In this document: one piece after another, positions 6,264 to 36,326 of the stretch | Position numbering within the stretch: the stretch's first letter is position 1 | How the letters are laid out: each line of letters starts with the position of its first letter | Source of the DNA: Pinguiococcus pyrenoidosus | Lineage: Eukaryota; Sar; Pinguiophyceae; Pinguiochrysidales; Pinguiochrysidaceae | Reading direction: 5' to 3' | Length of the DNA stretch: 38,107 bases | Assembly (NCBI GenBank): GCA_019677205.1 | Contig: JAAMXY010004499.1 | Coordinates: 1 to 38,107, forward strand | The notes under the pieces: model-generated | The model's database searches: none | What the model was told of the DNA's origin: nothing | What the model saw: the letters and a program-made list of their open reading frames with translations, nothing else | Made by a program: the position numbers and the translations under genes

Positions 6264-6984
6264 AATTTTCTTCCTCCTCAGTTTTTGAATTTTTAGTTAA
6301 TTGAATTTGCATACCATATGAAATACGATCTGCAAGATATTGTAAAATGTATTTAATTGAGCTAATTGTATCATCATTTGCAGGAATAGGAATATCTGTG
6401 ATATCAGGATCACAATTTGTATCTAATAAAGAAACAATCGGTATATTTAAAGTTAAAGCTTCTCTTACAGCTGTAATTTCTCTTTGCTGATCAATTACAA
6501 TAATTATATTAGGCAAAGTTTTCATATCCCTAATTCCGATCAAATGACGTTTTAAATTCTCTAATTCTTTTTTCTTGTTTGAAGCTTCTTTTTTCGGTAA
6601 TTTTTCAAAAGTACCATCTGCTTCTTGAGTTTCTAGTAAAACCATTTTATCAATTCTTAATCTAATGGTTTCCCAATTTGTTAGCATACCACCTAACCAG
6701 CGATGATTAATATAAAAACTTTTACAACGTTTTGCTTCTTGGCTAACAATTGACGCGGCTTGTTTTTTTGTTCCAACAAACAAAAAAGTATTACCATTTT
6801 CCGCAGCAGTTTGTAAAAAATCTCCTGCTTGAGTTAATAATTTTGCGGTTTGAACTAAATCTAGAATATGGATTCCATTACGCTCTGTATAGATATATGG
6901 AAACATTTTTGGATTCCAATTTGATGTTTTATGTCCTAAATGGACGCTTGCTTTTGCTAGTTGGGCTAAATGAATTGTAGCCAT
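6247..6984 (-). CDS. rps2: Small ribosomal subunit protein uS2 (Rps2)
   Basis: Ribosomal protein S2 binds the 30S head-body junction. It has 245 residues. Family marks: [22 protein letters not shown] at the N-terminus, [11 protein letters not shown], the block [16 protein letters not shown], and the C-terminal part with [22 protein letters not shown]. It is 70 bases downstream of rpoC2 on the same strand, continuing the rpoB-rpoC1-rpoC2-rps2-tsf-atp string, and overlaps tsf by 17 bases. Confidence 0.98.
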
Positions 6985-16491: not shown

Positions 16492-16707
16492 ATGAAAAAA
16501 AAGAAGAATCAATTTGTAGAGGCTGATCTTTTATCAGATAATAATTATAAGCAAATTGAAAATTTAGAAAAGTTTTTAACTGAACAAGGTAAAGTAATTA
16601 ATCGTCGCTTATCTAAATTACCTATTCGTCAACATGGAAGAATGACAAAGGAATTGAAGCGAGGAAGACTAATCGGTCTATTACCATTTACAGCTTTAGA
16701 TGACTAA
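16492..16707 (+). CDS. rps18: Small ribosomal subunit protein bS18 (Rps18)
   Basis: A 71-residue 30S platform protein that binds with bS6. Diagnostic C-terminal segment: RRLSKLPIRQHGRMTKELKR, followed by RGRLIGLLPFTALDD. It is translated right after rpl33 (5-base gap), and its stop runs directly into a strong hairpin (16706-16758), marking the end of this two-gene unit. Confidence 0.97.
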   Translation: MKKKKNQFVEADLLSDNNYKQIENLEKFLTEQGKVINRRLSKLPIRQHGRMTKELKRGRLIGLLPFTALDD

Positions 16708-16758
16708 AAAAAGATTTATTGCTTTTATCGAAATTAGAAAAGCAATAAATCTTTTTTT
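16706..16758 (+). terminator. Terminator hairpin after rps18
   Basis: Perfect 21-bp arms (16706-16726 and 16738-16758) with an 11-nt loop. The arms start and end in seven A and seven T, so the RNA has a stem followed by U residues, as in a bacterial intrinsic terminator. The first base of the stem overlaps the rps18 stop codon. Confidence 0.85.
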
Positions 16759-16765
16759 ATTAGGG

Positions 16766-17434: not shown

Positions 17435-18904
<1,470 letters not shown>

Positions 18905-18921: not shown

Positions 18922-19323
18922 ATGAGCTTAAACGTTAAATTAATTACTCCTGAAAAAGTAGTTTTTAATAATTTAGCCGATGAAGCAATTGTTCCTAGTA
19001 TTACAGGGCAATTGGGTATTTTAGCTAATCATGCTCCTATGGTTTCAGCTTTAGATATCGGCGTTTTACGTGTCAAATATGAACAAAAATGGCTTGTTAT
19101 TATATTATTCGGTGGATTCGTTGAAGTAAAAGATAATCAAGTTACTGTTGTAGCCAATGATATTGAAGAAACTTCAAAAATCGATTTTGATGCCGCAAAA
19201 ATCAAGCTTACTGAAGCATTTGAAACTTTAGATGTAGCAGAAACACCAAAAGAAAAAATTCGTGCTTCTGAAGAATTAAAGAAAGCTTCAGCTAGAGTTC
19301 AAGCCGCTATGTATTTACAATAG
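18922..19323 (+). CDS. atpE: ATP synthase CF1 subunit epsilon
   Basis: The rotor subunit epsilon, which couples the c-ring to gamma and inhibits ATP hydrolysis in the dark. It has 133 residues: an N-terminal beta sandwich (MSLNVKLITPEKVVF, GQLGILANHAPMVSAL) and a C-terminal helical hairpin rich in A/E/K. It is translated with atpB. The last three codons and the stop lie inside the left arm of a perfect 65-bp inverted repeat (19312-19443), so the C-terminal YLQ and stop are mirrored in front of tatC. Confidence 0.97.
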   Translation: MSLNVKLITPEKVVFNNLADEAIVPSITGQLGILANHAPMVSALDIGVLRVKYEQKWLVIILFGGFVEVKDNQVTVVANDIEETSKIDFDAAKIKLTEAFETLDVAETPKEKIRASEELKKASARVQAAMYLQ

Positions 19324-19443
19324 ACTGACTAGTTTATAGGATTATATCAGATTTAGAAAACCGTCTGTGTATTTAATTTTAAATACACAGACGGTTTTCT
19401 AAATCTGATATAATCCTATAAACTAGTCAGTCTATTGTAAATA
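19312..19443 (+). repeat. Perfect 65-bp inverted repeat between atpE and tatC
   Basis: Left arm 19312-19376 and right arm 19379-19443 are exact reverse complements, separated by only two bases (TT). The left arm begins inside atpE (last three codons plus stop) and the right arm ends 4 bases before the tatC ATG. Both genes read rightwards. The RNA would fold into an unbroken 65-bp duplex. It probably forms the atpBE 3' end; there is no Shine-Dalgarno sequence between it and tatC. Confidence 0.97.
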
Positions 19444-19447
19444 ATTT

Positions 19448-20221
19448 ATGAAAAATCTAGAATTTAAATCTCAAAACAAGTTTTTCTTTTCGCCCAAAAT
19501 CTTTTTTAAAGAAAGCAAGGATAAAGTATTAATCTATGTATTAGAAGAACACGCAAAAGAATTTAATCAACGTATTAAATTCCTTCTGATTCTTTCAGTT
19601 ATTCTTATTGTATTTTTCTTAATAAACGTAAAACCTATAACAAAATTATTGGAATTGCCAGTTCAAACGGTAAAATTTTTCCAATTATCACCTAATGAAT
19701 ATTTTTTTTCTAGCATAAAATTAGGAATTTATACCGGGATATTAGTTAGTTGCCCTATTTATATTAATCAATTGATTATATTTTTATCACCAAGTTTTTC
19801 TCCCCGAGAACAAAAATTAGTTTTTCCTTTAATTTTACTTTCAATATTATTATTTTTTTTAAGCCTTCAATTTACTTTCTTTGCTTTACTTCCAGCAGCT
19901 TTAAACTTTTTCTTAAATTACAATCAAGATGTTTTGGAACCCCTTTGGTCTTTTACTGAATATTTTGATTTCAGTACTACTTTATTTATAGGTACAGCTC
20001 TTATTTTCCAATTACCAATACTTCAAGTTCTTTTGACTACAATAAATGTAATAAATACTGAAATGATGGAAAAAAGTTGGAAATATGTTGCTCTATTTTC
20101 TACAATACTTGGAGCTATTATTACTCCCTCTACAGATCCTATTACCCAGTTATTACTTTCTTCTGTTATAATGCTATTATATGTATTAGGAATTTTATTA
20201 GTAAAATTTTATAATAAATAA
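19448..20221 (+). CDS. tatC: Sec-independent translocase protein TatC (Ycf43)
   Basis: TatC is the twin-arginine signal receptor of the thylakoid Tat pathway, which moves folded proteins across the membrane using the proton gradient. It has 257 residues with about six hydrophobic spans, including FLLILSVILIVFFLINV and LLSILLFFLSLQFTFFALLP. Recognisable family segments are SPNEYFFSSIKLGIYTGI (after span 1), FSPREQKLVFP, and the C-terminal GAIITPSTDPITQLLLS. The start at 19448 lies 4 bases after the long palindrome; no upstream in-frame ATG is better. ycf39 follows after 17 bases. Confidence 0.95.
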   Translation: MKNLEFKSQNKFFFSPKIFFKESKDKVLIYVLEEHAKEFNQRIKFLLILSVILIVFFLINVKPITKLLELPVQTVKFFQLSPNEYFFSSIKLGIYTGILVSCPIYINQLIIFLSPSFSPREQKLVFPLILLSILLFFLSLQFTFFALLPAALNFFLNYNQDVLEPLWSFTEYFDFSTTLFIGTALIFQLPILQVLLTTINVINTEMMEKSWKYVALFSTILGAIITPSTDPITQLLLSSVIMLLYVLGILLVKFYNK

Positions 20222-22762: not shown

Positions 22763-22812
22763 AATAAAATATGGTTAAAAGCTGAGGTTTCAGCTTTTAA
22801 CCATATTTTATT
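22763..22812. terminator. Bidirectional terminator between the CAU tRNA and rpl19
   Basis: Perfect 23-bp arms (22763-22785 and 22790-22812) with a GGTT loop. It starts 4 bases after the tRNA and ends 12 bases before the rpl19 stop. With no mismatch it folds equally in both strands, as expected for a shared convergent terminator. Confidence 0.88.
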
Positions 22813-24462: not shown

Positions 24463-25822
24463 TACAGTAGCTGGTCGCGATATTGAGTCTACAGGTTTTG
24501 CTTGGTGGGCTGGAAACGCGCGTTTAATCAATGTTTCAGGTAAACTTTTAGGTGCACACGTTGCACACGCAGGTTTAATTGTATTCTGGACTGGTGCTAT
24601 GACATTATTTGAAGTAGCTCACTTTATCCCAGAAAAGCCTTTATATGAACAAGGTTGTATCTTATTACCACATTTAGCAACTTTAGGTTGGGGTGTTGGT
24701 CCAGGTGGTGACATCGTAGATACATTCCCATACTTTGTAGTAGGTGTTTTACACTTAATCTCTTCTGCTGTATTAGGTTTTGGTGGAGTTTATCACTCTA
24801 TTATTGGCCCTGATACTTTAGAAGAATCTTTCCCATTCTTTGGTTACGACTGGCGTGATAAAAACAAGATGACTACTATTTTAGGTATTCATTTATGTTT
24901 ATTAGGTATAGGGTCTTTCTTATTAGTAATCAAAGCTATGTATGTTGGTGGATTGTATGATACATGGGCTCCCGGTGGTGGTGATGTTCGTGTTATTACA
25001 AATCCTACTTTAAATCCTCTAGTTATTTTTGGTTATGTTTTACGTTCTCCATTTGGTGGTGATGGTTGGATCGTTTCTATTAATAACATGGAAGATTTAG
25101 TAGGTGGTCACATTTGGGTAGGTATTTTATGCTTATTTGGTGGATTATGGCATATCGTAACTAAGCCTTGGGCTTGGGTACGTCGTACATTTGTATGGTC
25201 TGGTGAAGCTTATTTATCTTACAGTTTAGCAGCATTATCTGTTATGGGATTATCTGCTTCTATCTTTGTATGGTATAATAATACAGCTTATCCTAGTGAA
25301 TTCTATGGTCCAACAGGTCCTGAAGCATCTCAAGCTCAAGCATTTACATTCTTAGTTCGTGACCAACGTTTAGGTGCTAACGTAGCATCTGCTCAAGGTC
25401 CAACAGGTTTAGGTAAGTACTTAATGCGTTCACCTAGTGGTGAGATCATCTTAGGTGGTGAAACAATGCGTTTCTGGGATTTACGTGCACCTTGGTTAGA
25501 ACCTTTAAGAGGTCCAAATGGTTTAGATATCAACAAGATTCGTAATGATATTCAACCTTGGCAAGAGCGTCGTGCTGCAGAAGCAATGACACATGCTCCT
25601 TTAGGTTCATTAAACTCTGTAGGTGGTGTAGCAACAGAAATTAACTCTGTAAACTACGTATCTCCTCGTTCATGGTTAACAACTTCACACTTCTTCTTAG
25701 GCTTCTTCTTATTAGTAGCACATTGGTGGCATGCAGGTCGTGCTCGTGCCGCAGCTGCAGGTTTTGAGAAGGGAATTGATCGTGAAACAGAACCAGTATT
25801 AAGCTTACGACCAATTGACTAA
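24446..25822 (+). CDS. psbC: Photosystem II CP43 chlorophyll protein (PsbC)
   Basis: CP43 is the inner antenna of PSII; its large lumenal loop also supplies ligands to the Mn4CaO5 cluster. I use the GTG start at 24446, giving 458 residues. The processed N-terminus after the leader is expected near [10 protein letters not shown]. Conserved features: [18 protein letters not shown], six hydrophobic helices with His residues, and the loop motif [17 protein letters not shown], which contains the Glu and Arg next to the Mn cluster. It overlaps psbD by 17 bases. The stop is 36 bases before a 41-bp palindrome. Confidence 0.98.
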
Positions 25823-25858: not shown

Positions 25859-25942
25859 AATTAAATAATACTAAAAATTTCTAGGTTACTAAGAAAGAAT
25901 TTTCTTTCTTAGTAACCTAGAAATTTTTAGTATTATTTAATT
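25859..25942 (+). repeat. Perfect 41-bp inverted repeat after psbC
   Basis: Arms 25859-25899 and 25902-25942 are exact reverse complements with a 2-base loop (TT). It lies 36 bases after the psbC stop and is AT-rich with a GC-containing mid-section. It is the obvious 3'-end structure of the psbD-psbC message. The next gene, ycf19, is on the same strand. Confidence 0.95.
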
Positions 25943-26562: not shown

Positions 26563-26784
26563 ATGTTAAAAATTCGTCTAAAAAGACTAGGTAGAAAAAA
26601 AAGACCTACTTATAGAATAGTATTAATGGATGTAACAACTAAAAGAGATGGAAAAACAATTGAGGAATTTGGATTTTATAATCCTCTAAGTAAGGAAATT
26701 TCATTGGATAAGGATCGAATAAATTTACGAATTAAGCAAGGCGCCCAGTTAACAAAAACTGTTTCAAATTTATTAAAGAAATAA
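26563..26784 (+). CDS. rps16: Small ribosomal subunit protein bS16 (Rps16)
   Basis: A 30S assembly protein of 73 residues, intronless. It begins MLKIRLKRLGRKKRPTYRIV, the standard bS16 N-terminus, and contains EEFGFYNPL. The last five codons plus stop (from about 26769) lie inside the left arm of a perfect palindrome shared with convergent groEL, so its C-terminal LLKK and stop are the same codons as those of GroEL. Length is a little shorter than many bS16 proteins (about 78-82). Confidence 0.96.
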   Translation: MLKIRLKRLGRKKRPTYRIVLMDVTTKRDGKTIEEFGFYNPLSKEISLDKDRINLRIKQGAQLTKTVSNLLKK

Positions 26785-26852
26785 AAAATTTATAAAATGG
26801 AAAATTAAAAATTTAATTTTCCATTTTATAAATTTTTTATTTCTTTAATAAA
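26769..26852. repeat. Perfect 41-bp inverted repeat joining the rps16 and groEL 3' ends
   Basis: Arms 26769-26809 and 26812-26852 are exact reverse complements with a 2-base loop (AA). The left arm starts inside rps16 (last ~5 codons plus stop, stop ends 26784) and the right arm ends inside groEL (stop at 26837-26839). Both genes therefore end with TTA TTA AAG AAA TAA. It is the shared bidirectional terminator of the convergent pair. Confidence 0.96.
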
Positions 26853-28723: not shown

Positions 28724-28764
28724 AAAAAGCTACTTAAAGATTTTAGATCTTTAAGTAGCTTTTT
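28724..28764. terminator. Bidirectional terminator between trnL and cbbX
   Basis: Perfect 18-bp arms (28724-28741 and 28747-28764) with a 5-nt loop, flanked by A and T runs on both sides. It sits between the end of trnL (28715) and the cbbX stop (28773), serving both directions. Confidence 0.87.
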
Positions 28765-29657: not shown

Positions 29658-29690
29658 TTTTTTAATTTTTTAAATTCTATTTTTATAAAA

Positions 29691-29751
29691 TATTTTTAAT
29701 TGACCCGGAAACTTTATAAAAATATTAAAGTTTCCGGGCCAATTAAAAATA
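29691..29751 (-). terminator. Long stem-loop between rbcS and cbbX
   Basis: Arms of 26 nt (29691-29716 and 29726-29751) with a 9-nt loop. The single mismatch (A29703/C29739 on the plus strand) is a U.G pair in minus-strand RNA, the strand of rbcL-rbcS-cbbX. Includes a GC-rich CCGGAAAC core. Probably ends or protects the rbcL-rbcS message, so cbbX would be expressed at a lower level. Confidence 0.8.
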
Positions 29752-29765
29752 TAACATTTAAGATC

Positions 29766-35365: not shown

Positions 35366-35441
35366 ATAACAAGATAAATTATTAAAGGGTTTGTTTTATT
35401 GGTACCAATAAAACAAACCCTTTAATAATTTATCTTGTTAT
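35366..35441. repeat. Perfect 76-bp palindrome between psaL and petL
   Basis: Arms 35366-35403 and 35404-35441 (38 bp each) are exact reverse complements with no spacer; the centre is GGTACC. It lies 46 bases after the psaL stop and ends 5 bases before the petL stop, so it serves as a bidirectional 3'-end structure. Confidence 0.96.
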
Positions 35442-36276: not shown

Positions 36277-36326
36277 AAAATTATAAAGGGAAATGCTATA
36301 AATTTAGCATTTCCCTTTATAATTTT
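36277..36326. terminator. Bidirectional terminator between trnE and clpC
   Basis: Perfect 22-bp arms (36277-36298 and 36305-36326) with a 6-nt loop. It lies between the end of trnE (36273) and the clpC stop (36337), in the same layout as the other convergent terminators. Confidence 0.88.

Follow-up and report, generated by a model that had tools for sequence, protein, structure and literature searches.

Small inverted repeats close to the 3′ ends of genes have already been described in algal plastids. In Heterosigma akashiwo, 40 inverted repeats are reported from the plastid of one strain and 36 from that of another, the stems measuring 17-87 bp; like those described here, they have tiny loops, lie mostly 3′ of genes, are common to convergent genes, occur also in tandem spacers and in some cases overlap gene 3′ ends (psbI, psaI, petD, dnaK) (PMC2410131). 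Unlike the set described here, the Heterosigma repeats were accepted at >80% similarity and a few of them lie 5′ of a gene (petM/N, rpl3), and the section of that paper on repeats discusses neither homogenisation nor effects on protein tails (PMC2410131). In Nannochloropsis plastids, a study of 66 repeats reports almost all of them to be intergenic, with small loops and shared by convergent genes, and one of them serves atpE (PMC3999925). The group to which the atpE repeat belongs has a mean stem of 20.8 bp and the longest stem named in that account is 37 bp, whereas the palindrome studied here has a stem of 65 bp and reaches coding sequence (PMC3999925). Similarly, the 16 repeats reported for Chrysochromulina tobin and other haptophyte plastids lie mostly at the ends of opposite-strand genes, but their stems are shorter (mean 25.4 bp) and the description of them does not address arm identity; a haptophyte repeat beside clpC is conserved in place while its sequence and size vary (PMC4226036). 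A survey of chloroplast genomes reports 1,105 inverted repeats longer than 30 bp (31-100 bp), so that a 65-bp stem lies within the known range, but the counts given there are by length and not by gene end or arm history (PMC6081594).

As to function, plastid 3′ inverted repeats are reported to impede PNPase, which points to the likely role of a hairpin at the end of atpE (PMC5897788). As to origin, the mitochondria of Nematomorpha contain long perfect inverted repeats and few imperfect ones, and repeat conversion or template switching has been proposed for them, the authors arguing much as we do from the near lack of imperfect repeats; those repeats are embedded within protein-coding genes, whereas those described here occupy the 3′ ends of genes and in some cases span a convergent pair (PMC6649704). 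For RNA hairpins, a template switch is reported to make or repair a perfect stem in one mutation, which is the same mechanism as the one that we propose, but this origin was shown by ancestral reconstruction for RNA genes and not for plastid 3′ ends (PMC8794818). Our literature searches, which took in little of the subscription literature, found no account of homogenised plastid 3′ palindromes or of tails shared by head-on genes. What is added here is evidence, from sequence comparison, suggesting that the arms stay identical at the level of the DNA.

The palindrome between atpE and tatC

The window, by which we mean the whole stretch of 38,107 nt that was analysed (contig C750), comes from the plastid of an ochrophyte, possibly a eustigmatophyte-like one. 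Its gene content is that of a red-type plastid (cbbX, rbcS, rbcL, sufB, sufC, ycf39, tatC, psbV and others, named from our own reading). Three further contigs of the same assembly are also plastid, namely C753 (psbA), C762 (psaA/psaB) and C763 (rpl2), and the GC content of the four is 0.29-0.32, against 0.57-0.63 in eight other sampled contigs. The four plastid contigs, which together amount to 101.6 kb and represent part of the plastome, formed the sample for the survey. The gene table was built by hand from open reading frames and ARAGORN tRNAs, with names from our own reading; a Pfam check of 20 proteins matched the given name in 19, the exception being the secG candidate, which matched nothing. 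For rpl14 the coordinates, and for ycf37 the upper end, were guessed; both genes were omitted from the count of 128 coding sequences and rpl14 was assigned no hairpin. The junction is composed as follows.

17489-18904, plus strand: atpB, the upstream partner in a presumed atpBE unit (open reading frame; name read from the translation)
18922-19323, plus strand: atpE, ATP synthase epsilon subunit (open reading frame; Pfam PF02823 and PF00401), with its 3′ end inside the palindrome
19312-19376: left arm of the palindrome, which opens with 12 nt of atpE, the codons TAT TTA CAA and the stop TAG
19377-19378: spacer of 2 nt (TT)
19379-19443: right arm, the exact reverse complement of the left arm, ending 4 nt short of the tatC ATG
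19448-20221, plus strand: tatC, the next gene downstream (open reading frame; PF00902 on the 100%-identical database entry P0001)

The sequence-only reading of this stretch had described perfect 65-bp arms with a 2-nt loop, three atpE codons and the stop within the left arm, and a right arm that stops 4 bases before tatC. All of this was borne out: the arms are complementary at 65/65 positions (100%; 130 arm bases), the spacer is TT, the codons TAT TTA CAA TAG lie in the left arm, and the right arm ends at 19443 with the ATG at 19448. This start codon is supported by an alignment in which five of eight TatC relatives begin at the same column, one being longer and two shorter. In 50 dinucleotide-preserving shuffles of the window the longest perfect arm was 13, compared with the 65 observed, and the RNA of 19290-19470 has a predicted fold of -104.8 kcal/mol (z = -21.6). 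The same reading took the palindrome to be a copy of the atpE end, which presumes one of two possible directions: the helix domain of AtpE, as delimited by Pfam, ends at residue 129 of 133 and the three codons in the arm lie outside it, so the copying could equally have run the other way, with the palindrome supplying these codons to atpE.

When the segment 19280-19470 was searched at the DNA level against both strands of the 23.7-Mb assembly, no place matched except its own locus, and on these grounds the palindrome was judged neither to belong to a dispersed repeat family nor to be duplicated elsewhere. In this respect the single-site palindrome differs from the dispersed selfish palindromic repeats of green algal organelles, in which the same unit occurs at many sites. 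An intrinsic terminator was likewise rejected because there is no U-tract or T run and the GC content of the arms is 0.26; between 19200 and 19600 a terminator-like site was predicted just once, on the minus strand (19306-19289), where it lies clear of the palindrome. Nor is a missing Shine-Dalgarno sequence a peculiarity of tatC, since such a 4-mer was present in only 37 of the 128 coding sequences counted. Profile searches of viral contigs with TatC, the TatC alignment, PsbC and RbcL gave no confirmed relative, and a search of genome contigs with the TatC alignment gave no relative; a search of genome contigs with PsbD gave 567, and the best 80 of these 567 bear cyanobacterial titles.

A set of near-perfect hairpins at gene 3′ ends

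Scanning the four plastid contigs (spacer ≤12, score ≥16, wobble scored as a mismatch) yielded 26 hairpins in 101.6 kb. As many as 22 are mismatch-free, and there are 6 mismatches in all among the 904 arm pairs of the set. Among the 13 hairpins with arms of 31-65 bp, 604/605 pairs are Watson-Crick, and the spacer is 0 or 2 nt in 12 of them and 4 nt in one. No other hairpin of the set is as long as the atpE element. A wobble-tolerant scan adds 3 and 7 weak hairpins (score 16-19) on the two strands. The window alone contains 8 perfect arms of 18-65, against a maximum of 13 in the shuffles, and chance was therefore rejected as the origin of its hairpin set. Besides the one at atpE/tatC, the window holds eight hairpins, which were absent from the sequence-only reading.

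16705-16759: 22-bp arms, 3′ of rps18 (S18 confirmed by Pfam)
22763-22812: 23-bp arms, between convergent trnM and rpl19
25859-25942: palindrome with 41-bp arms, 3′ of psbC
26769-26852: palindrome with 41-bp arms, overlapping rps16 and groEL by 16 nt each at their 3′ ends (Pfam)
28724-28764: 18-bp arms, between convergent trnL and cbbX
29690-29752: 27-bp arms, a single mismatch (a G-U pair in the sense RNA of rbcS), 3′ of rbcS
35366-35441: palindrome with 38-bp arms and no spacer, between convergent psaL and petL (PetL by Pfam)
36277-36326: 22-bp arms, between convergent trnE and clpC

Because the palindrome at 26769-26852 spans the ends of both rps16 and groEL, the S16 and GroEL proteins both end LLKK.

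The position of the hairpins relative to genes is far from even. With the hand-made gene table of the four contigs, a hairpin was found at 14/16 convergent, 10/114 tandem and 0/18 divergent junctions, or 24/148 in total (Fisher tests: convergent versus divergent, p = 8.6e-8; convergent versus tandem, p = 9.1e-11). These proportions indicate that the hairpins mark the 3′ ends of transcripts; indeed, each of the 26 adjoins the 3′ end of a gene on one side or both, and no hairpin separates a pair of 5′ ends. At tandem junctions they follow rps18, atpE, psbC, rbcS, psaB, rpl12, psaD, petM, petF and psaJ, and the two of the 16 convergent junctions at which no hairpin was found are C763 psaE/trnK (6452-6504) and psbT/psbN (18673-18749). 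A coding 3′ end is overlapped by 14 of the 26 hairpins, and both convergent genes are overlapped by five (rps16/groEL, ftrB/psb30, psbJ/psaI, dnaB/chlB and rps14/petG).

The atpE/tatC palindrome stands at a tandem junction, 3′ of atpE, and by its small loop and its placement it fits the class of small plastid 3′ inverted repeats. The notion that it is an oddity peculiar to this junction does not hold, as 24 of 148 junctions carry such a hairpin and the class has been published (PMC2410131, PMC3999925). Rather, it is an unusually long and very clean new example of a known plastid feature. An 8-kb piece (C741:5001-13000; L107) of a 27-kb AT-rich contig whose reading frames apparently look mitochondrial had no hairpin at score ≥12, which hints that the palindromes are plastid-specific. 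At L006:8896-9291, about 400 nt without a recognised gene are flanked by hairpins 3′ of psbA and 3′ of rpl34.

A tail shared by DnaB and ChlB

The sister that bears on the history of these elements lies on another of the plastid contigs.

C763:14386-14442 (L103:4386-4442): coding palindrome with 26-bp arms, between convergent dnaB and chlB

Its arms take in the final 23 nt of both genes, in matching phase, and DnaB and ChlB consequently both end KEAAIS. We compared these tails in sets that consisted, for ChlB and for DnaB, of the own protein and the best 120 matches listed (121 rows each; the TatC search likewise took the best 120). KE[AST] within the last 12 residues was found in 101/121 ChlB rows, and KEA within the last 12 residues in 3/121 DnaB rows, namely the own protein, P0243 and P0244. 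These three rows come out as one clade (100/100) in a tree built from 22 rows, and the next five DnaB rows among the matches listed, P0245-P0249, end FKNL, FKNV or FKNQ. Since KEA is rare in DnaB and KE[AST] is common in ChlB, the DnaB tail is best read, from these sequences, as a copy of the ChlB tail that arose on that branch.

The nearest relatives among the matches listed, ChlB P0123 and DnaB P0243, both end KEATIS; each is listed on a contig of 8918 bases, and hence the two were taken to lie on one contig. At the protein level, the arms of the dnaB/chlB palindrome seem to have changed together in this relative. DnaB P0244 ends KEAAVS, and its ChlB partner was not found among the matches listed. 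In two further pairs, put together by the equal length of their contigs, P0127/P0249 (28241 bases) and P0128/P0247 (11093 bases), DnaB is without such a tail. The terminal DnaB branches within the clade measure 0.23-0.36 changes per column and the palindrome is still perfect, which argues that it is old and has been kept.

The plastid DnaB (L103:2702-4408) carries, by our own reading, an apparent intein-like insertion at residues of about 385-505. PF14890, which we take to be an intein domain, is marked on many of the listed DnaB relatives but not on the nearest two, P0243 and P0244.

Copying of DNA or selection on RNA

Our preferred reading, to which we assign a probability of about 0.7, is that the palindrome is the 3′-end hairpin of the atpB-atpE transcript and that its arms are kept identical by template-switch re-copying. 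The atpE/tatC RNA would fold into a 65-bp stem at the end of the atpB-atpE mRNA. Given where it stands and what plastid 3′ inverted repeats are known to do, this stem would most likely block 3′-to-5′ exonucleases, place the end of the mRNA at the stem base and separate the atpBE mRNA from tatC; insulation of tatC by the palindrome is plausible from this position. In the DNA, template switching during replication would re-copy one arm from the other and so erase mismatches, and the palindrome would grow outward into the adjoining coding ends until it met a site that cannot be overwritten, here the start of tatC. The atpE element presumably shares the history of its dnaB/chlB sister: homogenisation at atpE/tatC is suggested by analogy with this one sister, where the evidence is at the level of proteins. 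On the wider claim our judgement is evenly balanced: copying of arms in the DNA, and not selection on RNA, may keep the plastid 3′ hairpins of this lineage perfect and drive them into genes, and proteins encoded head-on (DnaB/ChlB, perhaps S16/GroEL) may thereby gain, keep and co-evolve the same C-terminal tail.

The alternative that survives best, though we consider it unlikely, is selection at the level of RNA alone, in which mismatches are selected against and compensatory substitutions restore pairing with no special DNA process. Hairpins that stand at 3′ ends and at 0/18 divergent junctions are probably useful, plastid 3′ inverted repeats are reported to protect mRNA (PMC5897788), and the difference between KEAAIS and KEATIS could, from the codons seen here, be a change of a G-C to an A-T pair by way of G-U. 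The frequency of wobble pairs speaks against this alternative. Sense-strand G-U pairs were counted in the 10 tandem hairpins because only one strand's transcript requires the fold there; at convergent junctions the fold may be needed in the RNA of both strands, a requirement that itself disfavours wobble, and the tandem-only count answers this concern with its 10 hairpins. They amount to 1/368 pairs, versus 38/476 in tRNA stems (22 tRNAs from the same four contigs; p = 4e-9). As the hairpin arms are A+T-rich, the comparison was also made with G-C pairs only, where the contrast is weaker (1:71 in hairpins versus 38:303 in tRNA stems, p = 0.007). Replacing one pair of the atpE hairpin by a wobble would lower the fold energy of 99.9 kcal/mol by 0.73 on average and 2.9 at most, a mean of <1%, so that selection for RNA folding alone should tolerate some. 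In addition, 65 perfect pairs are probably more than a block to exonucleases should need. Near-absent wobble combined with its low cost makes copying of the arms in the DNA a simpler explanation than selection.

A very young palindrome, the product of a single recent template switch that copied one side onto the other with decay yet to follow, seems improbable. Its 65/65 perfect pairs are as expected of a recent event, but the 13 long hairpins have 1 mismatch in 605 pairs and all of them would need to be equally young; moreover, the dnaB/chlB sister predates the split between the DnaB terminal branches of 0.23-0.36 and is still perfect. The sequence-only reading had offered a choice between very recent formation and active homogenisation, which was the right pair of options. 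We favour homogenisation because 22/26 hairpins are perfect, wobble is nearly absent, and the dnaB/chlB sister has stayed perfect despite its age, while the two proteins of a relative show a paired change.

There is also a slim chance, compatible with the preferred reading of a re-copied 3′ hairpin, that the element combines a 3′ end with a promoter, transcription of tatC starting from an extended -10 site in the right arm.

19406-19414, plus strand: TGATATAAT, a motif resembling an extended -10 element, within the right arm and 33 nt ahead of tatC; a weak candidate promoter, with a mirror copy at 19341-19349 on the minus strand

Its position ahead of tatC is suggestive, and a consensus scan of 19200-19600 found 4 promoter-like sites versus 1.7 expected, including one on the plus strand at 19314-19342 (in the left arm) and one at 19435-19463. 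However, TGnTATAAT is used by 0/4 of the sites from that scan, it occurs 8 times in the window versus 4.9 expected, and it is not enriched before genes, 2 of its 19 matches on the four contigs being intergenic and ≤200 nt from a same-strand start. An embedded promoter as the main function was rejected, the motif being without enrichment upstream of genes.

Palindromes are difficult for short-read assembly, and an assembler could have folded back on one arm. Such an artefact is very hard to credit here, given intact genes on both flanks, a sequence found at no second place in the assembly, 24 junctions alike with sensible gene context, separately sequenced relatives with the expected common DnaB/ChlB tails, and the same class of repeat in fosmid-sequenced Heterosigma (PMC2410131).

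The hairpin set makes it testable with ordinary sequence data whether perfect RNA stems are kept by compensatory selection or by template switching in the DNA. If template switching is true, a neighbouring gene can rewrite the ends of proteins, which matters for annotation; it would also be relevant to plastid engineering, where 3′ elements are needed.

psbC and isiA are presumably homologous, and this relationship may alone account for a strong match found opposite psbC, on the minus strand at 24851-25037 of the window, to the Rfam family IsrR (173.9 bits). IsrR is an antisense RNA that regulates isiA (Rfam), and the match in the plastid sequence may reflect the psbC/isiA homology only or a real antisense RNA.
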